A stretch of DNA of 47,883 nucleotides from Candidatus Cloacimonadota bacterium (GTDB lineage: Bacteria; Cloacimonadota; Cloacimonadia; Cloacimonadales; Cloacimonadaceae). The translations under genes were made by a program, and so were the position numbers. Shown piece by piece: positions 41,482 through 47,883 of this stretch; the first letter of the stretch is position 1; each line of letters starts with the position of its first letter. Below the pieces are notes generated by a model that saw only the letters and a list, made by a program, of their open reading frames with translations, did not search any database and was not told the origin of the DNA. The stretch spans positions 1 through 47,883 of the forward strand of contig DUNQ01000111.1 of the NCBI GenBank assembly GCA_012839325.1. The letters are read 5' to 3'.

Positions 41482-41550
41482 AGAGCAATCAGATATGCGG
41501 GCTATGCTTCTGAATTGGGTGTGTTAGTCATATAAATCACCTCTTATTTG

Positions 41551-41820
41551 GTAGGTTAACGCCCATGTTTTTGCGACCGGTATGGCAACGCCCCCGTTGC
41601 CATGAGCAAAAACAATCCACCCAAGCGGCTGGTCTGGCAACGCAGAACTTTGGGGCGGTAACATCTTGTTGCCGCATGCCCCCGTTGGATTCGATACGTC
41701 CCCGTATCGAGCTTTCTTTTAATGGTAGGTTAACGCCCCCGTTGCCATGAGCGGAAGACAATTCAACCAAGCGGCTGGGGTGGGAACGTCCCCGTTGCCA
41801 CGAGCGATCACCTGGCAGTA
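41551..41820 (+). repeat. Cluster of short palindromes with CCCC/TCCC loops
   Basis: Perfect hairpins ATGGCAACG-CCCC-CGTTGCCAT (41582-41603) and TCGATACG-TCCC-CGTATCGA (41691-41710) are followed by related ones at 41732-41743 (AACG-CCCC-CGTT) and 41771-41790 (one G-G mismatch). Longer blocks also repeat: GTAGGTTAACGCCC at 41551 and 41725, and CAAGCGGCTGG at 41622 and 41768. With the empty 41365-41550 and 41821-41895, the intergenic region 41365-41953 holds no convincing gene. A minus-strand ORF here looks like a by-product of the repeats. Confidence 0.65.
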
Positions 41821-41953: not shown

Positions 41954-43915
41954 ATGCAGCTTCAAGCGGGCACTATTTTACGTGATTACAAGATAGAAGA
42001 TCTTTTAGGAGAAGGCGGCATGGGCACCGTCTATCTTGCCAAAGACAGCGTTAATGATAGGTATGTAGCTATCAAAGAGCTCAATCTTATACTGAAGGCA
42101 GATTCTGAATTGGTAAAAAGATTTCGCAATGAAGCAAAATTGCAGGCAAAACTTAGCCATGAGAATATCGTCAGTCTGTACAGCTTTTTTGAGCAAGATG
42201 GGCGTTATTATATGGCGATGGAATATGCAGAGGGCAGGACTCTAAAAGAAGTTATCAGGAAGACAGGCCCTATTCCTGAAGCCAGAGCTATAAGTATCTT
42301 AAAACAGGTTGTTTCCGCTCTAAAATATGCCCATGACATGGGGATAATTCATCGTGATATCAAACCTTCCAATATTATTTTAGACGATAATGATCAAATT
42401 AAAATCCTTGATTTTGGTATAGCGAGAGTTGTAGGAGAAAGAGGCCTTACGCAGACGGGACAACAAATAGGCACCTTAGCTTATATGAGTCCCGAACAGG
42501 TGCGATCTGAAAAAGACATAGATGGCAAGACGGATGTATATAGTCTTGGGGTGACGCTCTTTGAAATGCTAAGTGGACGTATGCTTTATGACCTCGATTC
42601 ACAAAGCGATTATGCAATTATGATTAGCATTGTGGAAACACCATTACCTGATCCAAGAGACCATTATCCGTACATTTCTGATAGCACAATTGAGCTTTTG
42701 GCAAGAATGACTGAAAAGGAAGTAGATGAAAGGGCTGACATCACTGAGATCGAATGTTGTTTGAGAGATCATAACGATGCTGAAGTGCTTGAGAAGAGCA
42801 AAGAAGATGAAGATGAGAATGAAGATGAAGACGAAATTTGGGAGGAAGCAGTAGAGTTAGCGGAAGATGTTGAGGAGGAAGAAGAATTACCGGAAGATTC
42901 ACATTCAGAATTAAATCATTACATATATCAAGATATATTAGAAAAGTTGAGAAGAATTAATGTTGTAATGAATGTTGAGAAACTTGATGATATTGTAAGG
43001 AATGTTGAGGAGCTTGAAGATACTGCTGAAGACGAGCCTCTCGAACAAAAGGTGAAGGAAACAGGATACATTAGTCCATTGTGGTTCATAGCATTAATAG
43101 TATTAATATTGTTAGGAATCGGTGTGTTGTTAAAGAGTTTTATTGCAATTAACAGGGATGACGACTATGTTTCAGGTAGCTATGAAGAAGATTTAGTCAA
43201 TTCCATGATATTTGTAGAAGGCGGTACTTTTATGATGGGCTCAAGTGATGGATATGACGATGAAAAGCCTATTCACGAAGTGTCTCTTTCATCATTCATG
43301 ATAAGTCAATATGAGGTTACGCAAAAAGAATGGTTAGAAGTGATGGGTTCTAATCCTTCATCATTCAAAGGCAGCCATCGGCCTGTGGAAAATGTGAGCT
43401 GGCATGACGCCATTGATTATTGCAATAAGAGAAGCGTCAAGGAAGGGCTAACACCTTGCTATAGTGGTAGTGGAAATAATATAGCTTGCAATTGGGATGC
43501 AAATGGTTATCGCTTGCCTACAGAGGCTGAATGGGAATATGCTGCACGCGGTGGAAACAAGAGCAGTGGCTATGAATACGCCGGGTCAAATACGCTTAGT
43601 GATGTCGCTTGGTATTATGGCAATTCTGGGGACAAAACTCATCAGGTTGGTCAGAAAAGCCCCAATGAACTGGGGATATATGACATGAGCGGTAATGTAA
43701 GGGAATGGTGTTGGGATTGGTATGGCGAATCTTTTTATGAGAAAAGTCCTATAAGAGATCCACGCGGATCAACAAGTTGGCGAGGAAGAGTGTTGCGTGG
43801 CGGTTCTTGGAAAAGCAGGCTTGACTTATACTGCATGGTCGCCTATCGTAGCACAAACACTCCTATTGTTGCGAGCAATGGTAGCGGCTTTCGAGTTGTT
43901 AGGACTTTCAAATGA
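41954..43915 (+). CDS. Ser/Thr protein kinase - transmembrane - FGE-fold fusion, copy 1
   Basis: The 653-residue product starts with a Hanks-type kinase: glycine loop GEGGMGTVYLA, Lys41 (VAIKE), catalytic HRDIKPSN with Asp135, DFG Asp153 and MSPEQ, so it should be active. Residues ~280-370 are an acidic linker. A membrane helix at ~375-396 would put the kinase in the cytoplasm and the C-terminal domain (417-653) in the periplasm. That domain has the formylglycine-generating-enzyme/SUMF1 fold: FVEGGTFMMGS, RLPTEAEWEYAARGG, GIYDMSGNVREW, VLRGGSW, GFRVVR. Only one Cys (627) is present where true FGE uses two, so it is probably a ligand-binding domain. Residues 620-644 (43811-43885) differ strongly from the sister genes. 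Confidence 0.92.
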   Translation: MQLQAGTILRDYKIEDLLGEGGMGTVYLAKDSVNDRYVAIKELNLILKADSELVKRFRNEAKLQAKLSHENIVSLYSFFEQDGRYYMAMEYAEGRTLKEVIRKTGPIPEARAISILKQVVSALKYAHDMGIIHRDIKPSNIILDDNDQIKILDFGIARVVGERGLTQTGQQIGTLAYMSPEQVRSEKDIDGKTDVYSLGVTLFEMLSGRMLYDLDSQSDYAIMISIVETPLPDPRDHYPYISDSTIELLARMTEKEVDERADITEIECCLRDHNDAEVLEKSKEDEDENEDEDEIWEEAVELAEDVEEEEELPEDSHSELNHYIYQDILEKLRRINVVMNVEKLDDIVRNVEELEDTAEDEPLEQKVKETGYISPLWFIALIVLILLGIGVLLKSFIAINRDDDYVSGSYEEDLVNSMIFVEGGTFMMGSSDGYDDEKPIHEVSLSSFMISQYEVTQKEWLEVMGSNPSSFKGSHRPVENVSWHDAIDYCNKRSVKEGLTPCYSGSGNNIACNWDANGYRLPTEAEWEYAARGGNKSSGYEYAGSNTLSDVAWYYGNSGDKTHQVGQKSPNELGIYDMSGNVREWCWDWYGESFYEKSPIRDPRGSTSWRGRVLRGGSWKSRLDLYCMVAYRSTNTPIVASNGSGFRVVRTFK

Positions 43916-43936
43916 TTGGCTCTAAGGTAATAACCA

Positions 43937-43964
43937 TTGACTAAAAAAATAGAAATATTATAAA
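43937..43964 (+). promoter_or_regulatory. Promoter cassette, kinase-FGE copy 2
   Basis: TTGACT (43937-43942), 16 bases, TATAAA (43959-43964), the best -10 of the set. It belongs to the 58-bp block 43935-43992, which ends in AGGAGGA before the ATG. Confidence 0.6.
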
Positions 43965-43992
43965 GGGAAGTAGCACCGAATCAGGAGGAAAG

Positions 43993-45585
43993 ATGCAGCT
44001 TCAAGCAGGCACTATTTTACGTGATTACAAAATAGAAAAGCTTTTAGGCAAAGGCGGCATGGGCACCGTCTATCTTGCCAAGGATAGCTTTTTGGAAAGG
44101 CATGTAGCTATCAAAGAACTCAACCCAATTTTGGCTGCAGATGCTGATCTCATCGCAAGATTTCGTAATGAAGCGAAATTGCAGGCTAAGCTAATTCATG
44201 CAAACATAGCCGTTCTCTATAATTTCTTTGAACAAGATGGACGTTATTATATAGTGATGGAATATGCTGAGGGCAGGACTTTAAAAGAAATCATCAGGCA
44301 AATAGGACCTATTCCTGAAACAAAAGCTATAAGCATCCTAAAACAGGTGGTTAACGCTTTAGAATATGCACACAGCATGGGGATAGTTCATCGTGACATC
44401 AAGCCTTCTAACATTATTTTAGACGATGATGATAAAGTTAAAATCTTGGATTTTGGTATAGCGAGAGTTATGGGAGAAAAGGGGCTTACGCAGACGGGGC
44501 AGCAGTTGGGCACGGTTGTATACATGAGCCCTGAACAGGTGCAAGCCGAAAAAGATATTGATGGTAAAACAGATGTTTATAGCCTTGGTGTCACTTTGTT
44601 TGAAATGCTTAGTGGGCACATACCTTATGACGTGAATACACAAAGTGATTTCGTGGTGATGACCAAAATTGTTAATGACCCATTGCCAGATCCCCGAGAT
44701 TATTATCCTCATATATCTGACAATGCGGTCAGCCTATTATCTGAAATGACGGATAAAAATAGAGAAAAGAGAATAAGTATAGAACAAATTACTCTTTTTC
44801 TTGGGAATGTAATTAGCTCAAGCTCTAAACAAAAAGTGGTGAAACAGGAAATAATTAAGCCGGTTAAAAAAGCAGATATGATATTGGTGGAAGGTGGCAG
44901 TTTCCAGGTAAGTAGTGGGATACGTAAACTATTCGGTCGTTCTGTTCAGATCAATGTTTCTTCTTTTTATATATGTAAATATCAAGTGACTCAAAAAGAA
45001 TGGCAGGAGGTGATGAGCTCTAAACCTTCATATTTCATAGGTGATAATCTGCCTGTTGAACAAGTAAGCTGGTATGACGCCATGGAATACTGCAATAAGC
45101 GTAGTATCAAAGAAGGGCTTACGCCTTGCTATAGTGACAGTGGCGATGGCATTACTTGCAATTGGGATGCAGATGGATATCGTTTGCCTACCGAGGCAGA
45201 GTGGGAATATGCTGCTCGAGGTGGCAATAAAAGCAAGGGTTATGAATATGCCGGTTCAAATATGCTTGGTAATGTTGCTTGGTATGCTGATAATTCTAAT
45301 CTAAGAACTCACCCTGTGGCCCAGAAAACTCCGAATGAATTAGGGATATATGATATGAGCGGGAATGTATGGGAATGGCGCTGGGACTGGTATGACAGTT
45401 CATGTTACAGCAAAAGCCCGAAAAGAGACCCACGCGATGCTGCAAGTAGGAAACATAAGGTAATACGTGGTGGTTCTTGGTTCAACTTCCTCGGCAACTA
45501 TTGCCGGGTTGCTTACCGCAACTATTTTACTCCTACTCTTAGGATCAACTATATTGGCTTTCGTGTTTCTAGGGCTATTAACTGA
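43993..45585 (+). CDS. Ser/Thr protein kinase - FGE-fold fusion without membrane segment, copy 2
   Basis: The 530-residue product has the same intact kinase (Lys41, Asp135, Asp153) joined by a short Lys-rich linker (QKVVKQEIIKPVKKADM) straight to the FGE-fold domain at ~296-530. There is no hydrophobic segment, so the whole protein should be cytoplasmic, unlike copies 1 and 3. The MGS motif of the FGE start is changed (SFQVSSGIRKLFG). The end reads RGGSW, a variable stretch (497-521, bases 45481-45555), then GFRVSR. Most variable codons end in C or T (TTC AAC TTC CTC GGC AAC at its start), as expected from AAY template codons. It sits 77 bases after copy 1. Confidence 0.92.
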   Translation: MQLQAGTILRDYKIEKLLGKGGMGTVYLAKDSFLERHVAIKELNPILAADADLIARFRNEAKLQAKLIHANIAVLYNFFEQDGRYYIVMEYAEGRTLKEIIRQIGPIPETKAISILKQVVNALEYAHSMGIVHRDIKPSNIILDDDDKVKILDFGIARVMGEKGLTQTGQQLGTVVYMSPEQVQAEKDIDGKTDVYSLGVTLFEMLSGHIPYDVNTQSDFVVMTKIVNDPLPDPRDYYPHISDNAVSLLSEMTDKNREKRISIEQITLFLGNVISSSSKQKVVKQEIIKPVKKADMILVEGGSFQVSSGIRKLFGRSVQINVSSFYICKYQVTQKEWQEVMSSKPSYFIGDNLPVEQVSWYDAMEYCNKRSIKEGLTPCYSDSGDGITCNWDADGYRLPTEAEWEYAARGGNKSKGYEYAGSNMLGNVAWYADNSNLRTHPVAQKTPNELGIYDMSGNVWEWRWDWYDSSCYSKSPKRDPRDAASRKHKVIRGGSWFNFLGNYCRVAYRNYFTPTLRINYIGFRVSRAIN

Positions 45586-45606
45586 TTGGTTCTCAGGTGA
45601 AAAACA

Positions 45607-45634
45607 TTGACTAAAAAAATAGAAATATTAGAAG
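45607..45634 (+). promoter_or_regulatory. Promoter cassette, kinase-FGE copy 3
   Basis: TTGACT (45607-45612), 16 bases, TAGAAG (45629-45634), in the 58-bp block 45605-45662. The ribosome-binding site is TGGAGGA. Confidence 0.5.
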
Positions 45635-45662
45635 GGTATGCAGCACCGAATCTGGAGGAAAG

Positions 45663-47435
45663 ATGCAGCTTCAAACAGGCACTACTTTACGTGATTACAA
45701 GATAAAAAAGCTTTTAGGTAAAGGCGGCATGGGCACCGTCTATCTTGCCAAGGACAGCTTTTTGGATAGGTATGTGGCAATTAAAGAACTAAATCCAATA
45801 TTAACAGCTGATGCTGACTTGATAGCAAGATTTCGTAATGAAGCAAAACTACAGGCAAAATTGACTCACCTTAACATAGTTAGCTTGTACAGCTTTTTTG
45901 AGCAAAATGGGCGTTATTATATAGTGATGGAGTATGCAGAGGGCAAGACTTTGAAAGAGGTCATAAGACAGACGGGTCCAATTACTGAAACAAGAGCTAT
46001 TGATATATTAAAACAGATTCTTTCGGCTTTAGAGTATGCTCATGGCATGGAGATTATTCATCGCGATATCAAGCCTTCTAACATTATTTTGGATGGAAGT
46101 GATAGAGTCAAAATATTGGACTTTGGCATAGCTCGAATACTTGGTGAGCGAGGTCTAACCCAGACTGGACAGCAATTGGGCACTGTTGCATATATGAGTC
46201 CTGAGCAAGTTAAAGCTGAAAAAGATATAGATAGCAAAACCGATGTGTATAGTCTTGGAGTGACGTTATTTGAGATGTTAAGCGGACGTATGCCTTATGA
46301 TTTAAACACCGAAAGCGATTTTGTGATAATGAACAAGATTGTTCATGATCGATTGCCTGATCCAAGGGATGATTACCCGTATATTTCTGATAAAAATATA
46401 GATCTTTTAGCAATAATGACAGAAAAAGATAGGCACAAAAGAGCAGATATCGTTGAGCTTGAACTGTATTTGAGTGGCAAGAACTATGTCGGAAAGAGCG
46501 AGAGAAGGAAAGAAATAGAAGCAAAAGAGGTGAAAAGGATTGATATTAAGGTGGATAGCAAAGATCCTGGTGATGCTACTGAAGAGGGACTTCATGTGCA
46601 AAAGAATAAGAAAGAAAGTAAGAATCTATTGTGGATAATCATTCTAATTTCAATCATATTAGGCGTCAAGATGTTTTCTAAGATTGATGTGTCAAAAAAT
46701 CATGGAGATAATGAAATCAATTCTATGATTTTTGTAGAAGGCGGTTCATTCGAAATGGGCTCAGATGACGGATGGGAGCTCAAAGAAAGACCTATTCATG
46801 ATGTAACTATTTCTTCATTTTGGATTGATAAGTATCAGGTGACGCAAAAAGAGTGGAAAAACATAATGCGCTCTAAGCCTTCAAAAATTAAAAGCGACAA
46901 CCTGCCTGTGCAATATGTTTCCTGGTATGACGCAATAGAATATTGCAACAAACGCAGTATCAAAGAGGGGCTTATGCCTTGCTATAGTGGGAGTGGTGAT
47001 GACATTACTTGCAATTGGGAAGCAGATGGCTATCGTTTACCCACGGAAGCAGAATGGGAATATGCTGCTCGTGGTGGAAATAAAAGCAGGGGTTATAAGT
47101 ATGCCGGTTCAAATACACTTGATGATGTGGCATGGTGTAAAAGTAATTCTCAAAATAAAATTCATCCCATCGGTCAGAAAAGCCCTAATGAATTAGGAAT
47201 ATATGACATGAGTGGTAATGTATGCGAATGGTGTTGGGATTGGTATGATGCCTCATATTACAGCAAAAGTCCAAAAAGAGATCCGCATGGACCCGATAGC
47301 GGCAAATCAAAAATACTACGTGGCGGTTCTTGGGAGTTTAGTGATGGAACCTGTCGAGTTGCGAAGCGCTACCCCATTCATCCTCTTAATTGTGATAGCT
47401 ATCTTGGTTTTCGGGTTGTCAGGGCTTTTAACTGA
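45663..47435 (+). CDS. Ser/Thr protein kinase - transmembrane - FGE-fold fusion, copy 3
   Basis: The 590-residue product has the intact kinase (Lys41, Asp135, Asp153), a short charged linker, one membrane helix near 320-337 (LLWIIILISIILGV) and a periplasmic FGE-fold domain from ~355 (FVEGGSFEMGSDDG ... GIYDMSGNVCEW ... RGGSW). The variable stretch is residues 558-581 (47334-47405), one codon shorter than in copies 1 and 2, followed by GFRVVR. The kinase part is closest to copy 2 in its N-terminal segment (DSFLDRYVAIKELNPIL). It should sense a periplasmic ligand and signal inward; the ligand and phosphorylation target are unknown. Confidence 0.92.
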   Translation: MQLQTGTTLRDYKIKKLLGKGGMGTVYLAKDSFLDRYVAIKELNPILTADADLIARFRNEAKLQAKLTHLNIVSLYSFFEQNGRYYIVMEYAEGKTLKEVIRQTGPITETRAIDILKQILSALEYAHGMEIIHRDIKPSNIILDGSDRVKILDFGIARILGERGLTQTGQQLGTVAYMSPEQVKAEKDIDSKTDVYSLGVTLFEMLSGRMPYDLNTESDFVIMNKIVHDRLPDPRDDYPYISDKNIDLLAIMTEKDRHKRADIVELELYLSGKNYVGKSERRKEIEAKEVKRIDIKVDSKDPGDATEEGLHVQKNKKESKNLLWIIILISIILGVKMFSKIDVSKNHGDNEINSMIFVEGGSFEMGSDDGWELKERPIHDVTISSFWIDKYQVTQKEWKNIMRSKPSKIKSDNLPVQYVSWYDAIEYCNKRSIKEGLMPCYSGSGDDITCNWEADGYRLPTEAEWEYAARGGNKSRGYKYAGSNTLDDVAWCKSNSQNKIHPIGQKSPNELGIYDMSGNVCEWCWDWYDASYYSKSPKRDPHGPDSGKSKILRGGSWEFSDGTCRVAKRYPIHPLNCDSYLGFRVVRAFN

Positions 47436-47621: not shown

Positions 47622-47777
47622 ATGCAACTTGAAACTGGCTCTGTATTGCGAGATTACGAGATAGAAAAGTTTTTAGGAAAAGGCGGCATGGGCACCGTGT
47701 ACCTTGCCAAGGATAGTTTTTTAGATAGATCTGTAGCTATTAAAGAGTTAAGCCCTTTATTAACGGCGGATGCCGAG
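47622..47777 (+). pseudogene. Fourth kinase-FGE gene, interrupted after 52 codons by an IS element
   Basis: ATG 47622 with GGGAGGA upstream opens the same kinase start as the other copies: MQLETGSVLRDYEIEKFLG, the intact glycine loop GKGGMGTVYLA, VAIKEL, and then LTADAE. At 47778 homology stops and an IS21-like end begins. The remaining codons read into unrelated residues and would stop within the element. Its upstream region (47436-47621) differs from the 58-bp cassette except for TTGACT (47567-47572), so this copy is older or separately derived. Whether the rest of the gene lies beyond the element is not visible. Confidence 0.85.
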
Positions 47778-47883
47778 TGTCGACGGAAGTTAAAAATGCA
47801 CCACAAACGGAAGTTTAAATTGCACCAGATTAAACTATCCATTATTAGTCCTCTTAACCTAAGAGTTAGGAGGAACCATGAAA
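47778..47883 (+). mobile_element. Left end of an IS21-family insertion sequence with the start of istA (runs off window)
   Basis: The element starts TGTCGACGGAAGT, with the TG terminus usual for IS21 relatives, and carries two tandem copies of a ~21-bp terminal repeat. It then leads to AGGAGG (47868-47873) and ATG at 47878, where the transposase istA should begin; only two codons (Met-Lys) are inside. IS21 elements encode istA (DDE transposase) and istB (AAA+ helper). Assignment rests on the terminal repeat type and layout only. Confidence 0.7.
47783..47827 (+). repeat. Tandem terminal repeats of the IS21-like element
   Basis: 47783-47803 and 47807-47827 are 21-bp direct repeats with a 24-bp period, differing at two positions (ACGGAAGTTAAAAATGCACC and ACGGAAGTTTAAATTGCACC). 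Multiple terminal repeats are the IstA-binding sites in this family. Confidence 0.75.

Follow-up and report, generated by a model that had tools for sequence, protein, structure and literature searches.

Probable orphaned, partly decayed DGR variable regions on tandem Ser/Thr kinases of a Candidatus Cloacimonadota bacterium

DGR-diversified Ser/Thr kinase-CLec variable proteins are known from cyanobacteria, where they have remote or orphan paralogs, and one such paralog, all3226, retains remnant homology between template repeat (TR) and variable region (VR) with no reverse transcriptase (RT) nearby (PMC7517822). Leftover FGE targets occur in Treponema denticola strains that carry neither RT nor TR, and HRDC is the accessory gene in that species (PMC4891356). 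In Thiohalocapsa PB-PSB1, CLec/FGE targets of DGRs, including remote ones, are fused to signalling or conflict domains, Pkinase among them (PMC10907252).

The window analyzed here, a stretch of 47,883 nucleotides, corresponds to contig C113 in a bin of 2.0 Mb and 147 contigs, with a completeness of 94.9% and a contamination of 3.3%, and carries a tandem array of kinase-FGE genes. Like the cyanobacterial kinase-CLec proteins (PMC7517822), these genes place a C-terminal CLec/FGE-type domain on a Ser/Thr kinase and have dispersed paralogs; they differ in belonging to another phylum, in their tandem arrangement and in that no DGR was found anywhere in the genome. With the TvpA-type targets of T. 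denticola (PMC4891356; 2y3c) they share the FGE fold and a VR between RGGSW and GFR, and TvpA-type cassettes are also alike in having an HRDC accessory gene, which recurs in a related genome described below, and targets that persist without RT and TR; the T. denticola targets, however, are stand-alone proteins, often lipoproteins, with no kinase fusion. Thiohalocapsa PB-PSB1 is similar in its CLec/FGE domain fusions, including Pkinase, and in its remote targets, but its RTs and templates are present and diversification has been observed in natural populations (PMC10907252). Since orphan kinase-CLec proteins (PMC7517822) and leftover FGE targets (PMC4891356) have already been reported, the array belongs to a known type. 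We think it probable that its scrambled segments are orphaned, partly decayed DGR variable regions on kinases, apparently no longer served by a DGR. The genes and their variable regions are as follows, C74 being a contig of the same genome that encodes a stand-alone FGE paralog.

41954..43915, + strand: copy 1, Ser/Thr kinase, transmembrane segment and FGE-fold domain, 653 aa (Pfam Pkinase 1.8e-63, FGE-sulfatase 1.9e-51; hydrophobic segment at residue 375)
43811..43885, + strand: putative variable region of copy 1, 25 codons, more decayed type (NNY 19/25; non-A mismatch 0.31 to best template)
43993..45585, + strand: copy 2, Ser/Thr kinase and FGE-fold domain without transmembrane segment, 530 aa (Pfam Pkinase and FGE-sulfatase; no hydrophobic segment)
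45481..45555, + strand: putative variable region of copy 2, 25 codons, with the freshest apparent DGR imprint in the window (NNY 23/25; no K, M, Q, E or W; third bases 91% shared with C74, first and second 61%)
45663..47435, + strand: copy 3, Ser/Thr kinase, transmembrane segment and FGE-fold domain, 590 aa (Pfam Pkinase and FGE-sulfatase; hydrophobic segment at residue 323)
47334..47405, + strand: putative variable region of copy 3, 24 codons, more decayed type (NNY 19/24; non-A mismatch 0.31)
47622..47777, + strand: fourth kinase copy, 5' end only (kinase match, 63% identity), interrupted at about 47777 by an IS-like end

The transmembrane segment of copies 1 and 3 sits between the kinase and the FGE domain. 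By sequence match, the DGR variable protein TvpA (2y3c, E 2.6e-41) comes nearest among solved structures. In an alignment of copy 2 with the solved FGE structure 6muj, the cysteine pair in the 6muj C-terminal stretch, which we take to be catalytic, lies opposite a gap and a Gly; in this alignment copy 2 lacks the two active-site cysteines of a catalytic formylglycine-generating enzyme. In other genomes, the FGE domains nearest to copy 2 share 55-58% identity with it, and no ortholog of the window kinases was found that would be near enough for a strain-level test. The C74 protein is probably secreted, and its nearest named relatives are from Candidatus Cloacimonadota bacteria. The IS-like end at 47778, at the contig edge, occurs three times in the bin. 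Upstream of the array, at 41549-41805, lies a 35-nt intergenic repeat in three imperfect copies (..AACGCCCCCGTTGCCATGAGC). Different C-terminal domains seem to be interchangeable on the kinase module: in genome G002, of the same genus, the tandem neighbor of a kinase-FGE gene (L274:7074-8573, G002:C56) has the same kinase domain and a different C-terminus, which by eye resembles a TonB C-terminal domain.

A sequence-only reading of the window had proposed that the three FGE domains are scrambled after RGGSW and restored at GFR, and this is what we find, each stretch being 24-25 codons long and lying exactly where that reading had placed it; the different silent codons it had reported at fixed residues among the copies are likewise there. 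In a scan of all 24-column windows of a four-way FGE alignment (copies 1, 2 and 3 and the C74 paralog), the RGGSW-GFR stretch has the lowest identity of the domain (mean amino acid identity 0.37, vs a median of 0.68). The N-terminal stretch of the domain (columns 7-11 onwards) is nearly as variable, with an identity of 0.42, so low identity by itself is not unique to the RGGSW-GFR stretch. The window copies are scrambled in this stretch relative to the kinase-FGE of G002, and may have been so before the two species separated, since kinase domains are 74-82% identical both within and between the two genomes. In three other FGE genes of the genome, compared with their G002 orthologs, the stretch is as conserved as its flank. 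Separately, one FGE gene with a DGR-like VR (L004 and L029; G000:C13 and G002:C33) is nearly identical across two species, VR included (92% of amino acids, 96% of third bases), and thus has a frozen variable region.

Complete DGR cassettes, consisting of an FGE target, an accessory gene, an RT and a template repeat, are present in three genomes of the same genus (G002, G004 and G008). Their RTs carry the motif GLP[VI]GNLTSQ, the accessory protein of G004 is an HRDC-domain protein, and the template reads RGGxWNNNANNC[RT]V[AS]NRNNNN..., a pattern with AAY codons at the window's variable positions and other codons at the fixed C.VA.R. At RT-linked loci, VR and TR differ almost exclusively at template adenines. 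Other arrangements were seen in the same family: in two further genomes, FGE targets adjoining DGR RTs carry a fused caspase domain, Peptidase_C14 (L087:3373-5214 in G045 and L088:3106-5193 in G043), which suggests diversified sensors on cell-death-like effectors. In G009, two RTs with the SQ motif (L078 and L079, on G009:C48 and G009:C71) lie next to phage-like proteins; they may be prophage DGRs that serve a different type of target.

The variable codons fall where the templates have AAY, and the pyrimidine third base is kept, strongly in copy 2 and C74 and weakly in copies 1 and 3. The codon bias that had been noticed in copy 2 holds up against its own flank (NNY in 23/25 codons vs 46/82, Fisher p = 0.0006). 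The corresponding counts are 21/23 for the C74 VR (p = 0.002) and, each against its own flank, 19/24 for copy 3 (p = 0.04) and 19/25 for copy 1 (p = 0.05); apart from copy 2, the individual copies are thus weak evidence, with copies 1 and 3 at p = 0.04-0.05 only. Pooled, the VRs of the window and C74 have 85% NNY codons, RT-linked VRs 87% and housekeeping FGE genes 63-65%, and the share of K, M, Q, E and W is 0.04, 0.005 and 0.16-0.21, respectively. The bias goes beyond amino acid choice: given the amino acids, 43 of 54 codons in the window and C74 VRs end in a pyrimidine, against 29-34 expected depending on the background, and 87 of 110 in RT-linked VRs, against 70 expected. Among housekeeping FGE genes this excess is absent in one family and marginal in the other; in the VRs it is weaker when set against the codon usage of other window genes (p = 0.005 pooled).

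The VRs of copy 2 and C74 also share 91% of their third bases and 61% of their first and second bases, while their flanks share 64% and 83%. This is the inverse of ordinary divergence, and no other window of their alignment shows it as strongly as the VR (p = 0.005 for third bases, before correction for six pairs). Third bases kept while first and second bases diverge were not seen in the other five pairs. A housekeeping gene likewise changes more at template-A sites (p = 0.02); such an excess is thus in part a property of the fold, and we dropped it as evidence on its own.

With the VR left out, an FGE tree groups the window copies and C74 with one G002 kinase-FGE in a single clade (support 100/97), and this clade adjoins a target in genome G033 (84/73). 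With this modest support, the G033 target is the probable sister FGE domain. It is a stand-alone protein with a layout like that of C74 (41 of 116 aligned N-terminal residues are identical), an RT and template are located about 5 kb from it, and of the 15 mismatches between its VR and that template, 14 are at A. Measured at non-A positions, mismatch to the best template is 0-6% in RT-linked targets, 6-16% in the closest other FGE genes, several of which are in genomes without a detected FGE-type DGR RT, 20-31% in C74 and the window copies, and 38-52% in housekeeping FGE genes; for C74 and the window copies the templates come from other species, so that part of the mismatch is template divergence.

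A different source for the scrambling would be ordinary mutation of an exposed FGE-fold loop under relaxed or diversifying selection. The bin yielded no DGR, the fold tolerates change at the variable sites, and the nearly as variable N-terminal stretch and the added change at template-A sites in housekeeping genes all fit such an origin. Ordinary divergence would not, however, preserve third bases while first and second bases change, and the housekeeping FGE genes have no such codon bias and are conserved between RGGSW and GFR. We regard this explanation as unlikely, and consider a DGR origin of the variable regions, as judged from sequence comparison, well supported.

Whether a DGR still serves them is a separate matter. 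As the sequence-only reading had said, the window holds no RT or template. That reading had named a genome with neither a DGR RT nor a near-identical template as evidence against itself, and within the limit of a 94.9%-complete bin this is what the search of the bin returned: no DGR RT, HRDC accessory gene or template. The sole RVT_1 match in the bin (L011, G000:C10:2-1432), at a contig edge, was rejected as a DGR RT because it is a Cas6-RT fusion with a CRISPR-type RT, and the G008 DGR RT as query found nothing else. Searches of the bin for a template repeat by pattern, by VR and by inferred template matched only the VRs themselves and chance sequences. The accessory-gene search of the bin covered the HRDC type; the best match to the G004 protein (E 0.002, 26% identity, within a 624-aa frame) was taken as chance. 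One exact-pattern scan of IMG/VR for a phage-borne template gave no match, which excludes that pattern only.

The VRs could still be diversified in trans by a DGR absent from the assembly, located on unassembled chromosome or beyond the IS-bounded contig edge; the bin is incomplete and in 147 contigs, the contig ends within the IS-like element beside the array, and trans diversification is reported elsewhere (PMC10907252). Against this stand the negative RT, accessory and template searches and the three other FGE genes that are equally conserved in stretch and flank relative to G002. Silent differences among the VRs moreover mean that a single template could not serve all of them now. We judge continuing diversification in trans quite unlikely. 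Gene conversion or recombination among the copies is barely credible: the genome has several closely related FGE genes with common leaders and a tandem layout, but no two copies have a tip in common, and exchange would equalize first/second- and third-base similarity, contrary to the base-position pattern.

The proposal of a DGR therefore stands as to origin, through the same-genus templates, the third-base signature and a probable sister that is a retroelement-served target, and is unsupported as to an active, DGR-served VR, no DGR RT or template having been found in the bin and the non-A positions being no longer near any known template. With no such element found in this genome, the most likely view is that the copies inherited their variation, which is by now largely fixed and no longer being generated.

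For orphaned variable regions of this kind, we propose that mutagenic retrohoming would have diversified an ancestral FGE domain, close to the stand-alone C74 protein, using a template in which the positions now variable were AAY codons. The diversified domain would then have been joined to a Ser/Thr kinase and the fused gene multiplied in tandem, the retroelement being afterwards lost or diverged out of reach; this order of fusion, duplication and loss is our reconstruction. The copies would retain different scrambled tips, now drifting and presumably selected as ordinary sequence, with the imprint seemingly freshest in copy 2 and C74 and most decayed in copies 1 and 3. More tentatively, the array may be a bank of tandem kinase receptors and an instance of domesticated DGR output: retrohoming would have made the tips, which were fixed and kept as a heritable repertoire once the retroelement was gone, and copy 2 and C74 would have been reached by homing in trans when their FGE domains were already divergent.

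The genes would thus encode a kinase family whose binding surfaces differ but are now fixed, with copies 1 and 3 anchored in the membrane and copy 2 in the cytosol, and in which the kinase fusion may couple a variable binding surface to phosphorylation. Because copy 2 is without a transmembrane segment, an outside-in sensor cannot hold for all three copies. Within one bacterial family there is a graded series from RT-served VRs through orphans to decayed ones, kinase fusions included, and the fate of retroelement-made binding surfaces after loss of the retroelement becomes testable. The codon third-base signature suggests that DGR ancestry can be exposed where neither RT nor template survives.
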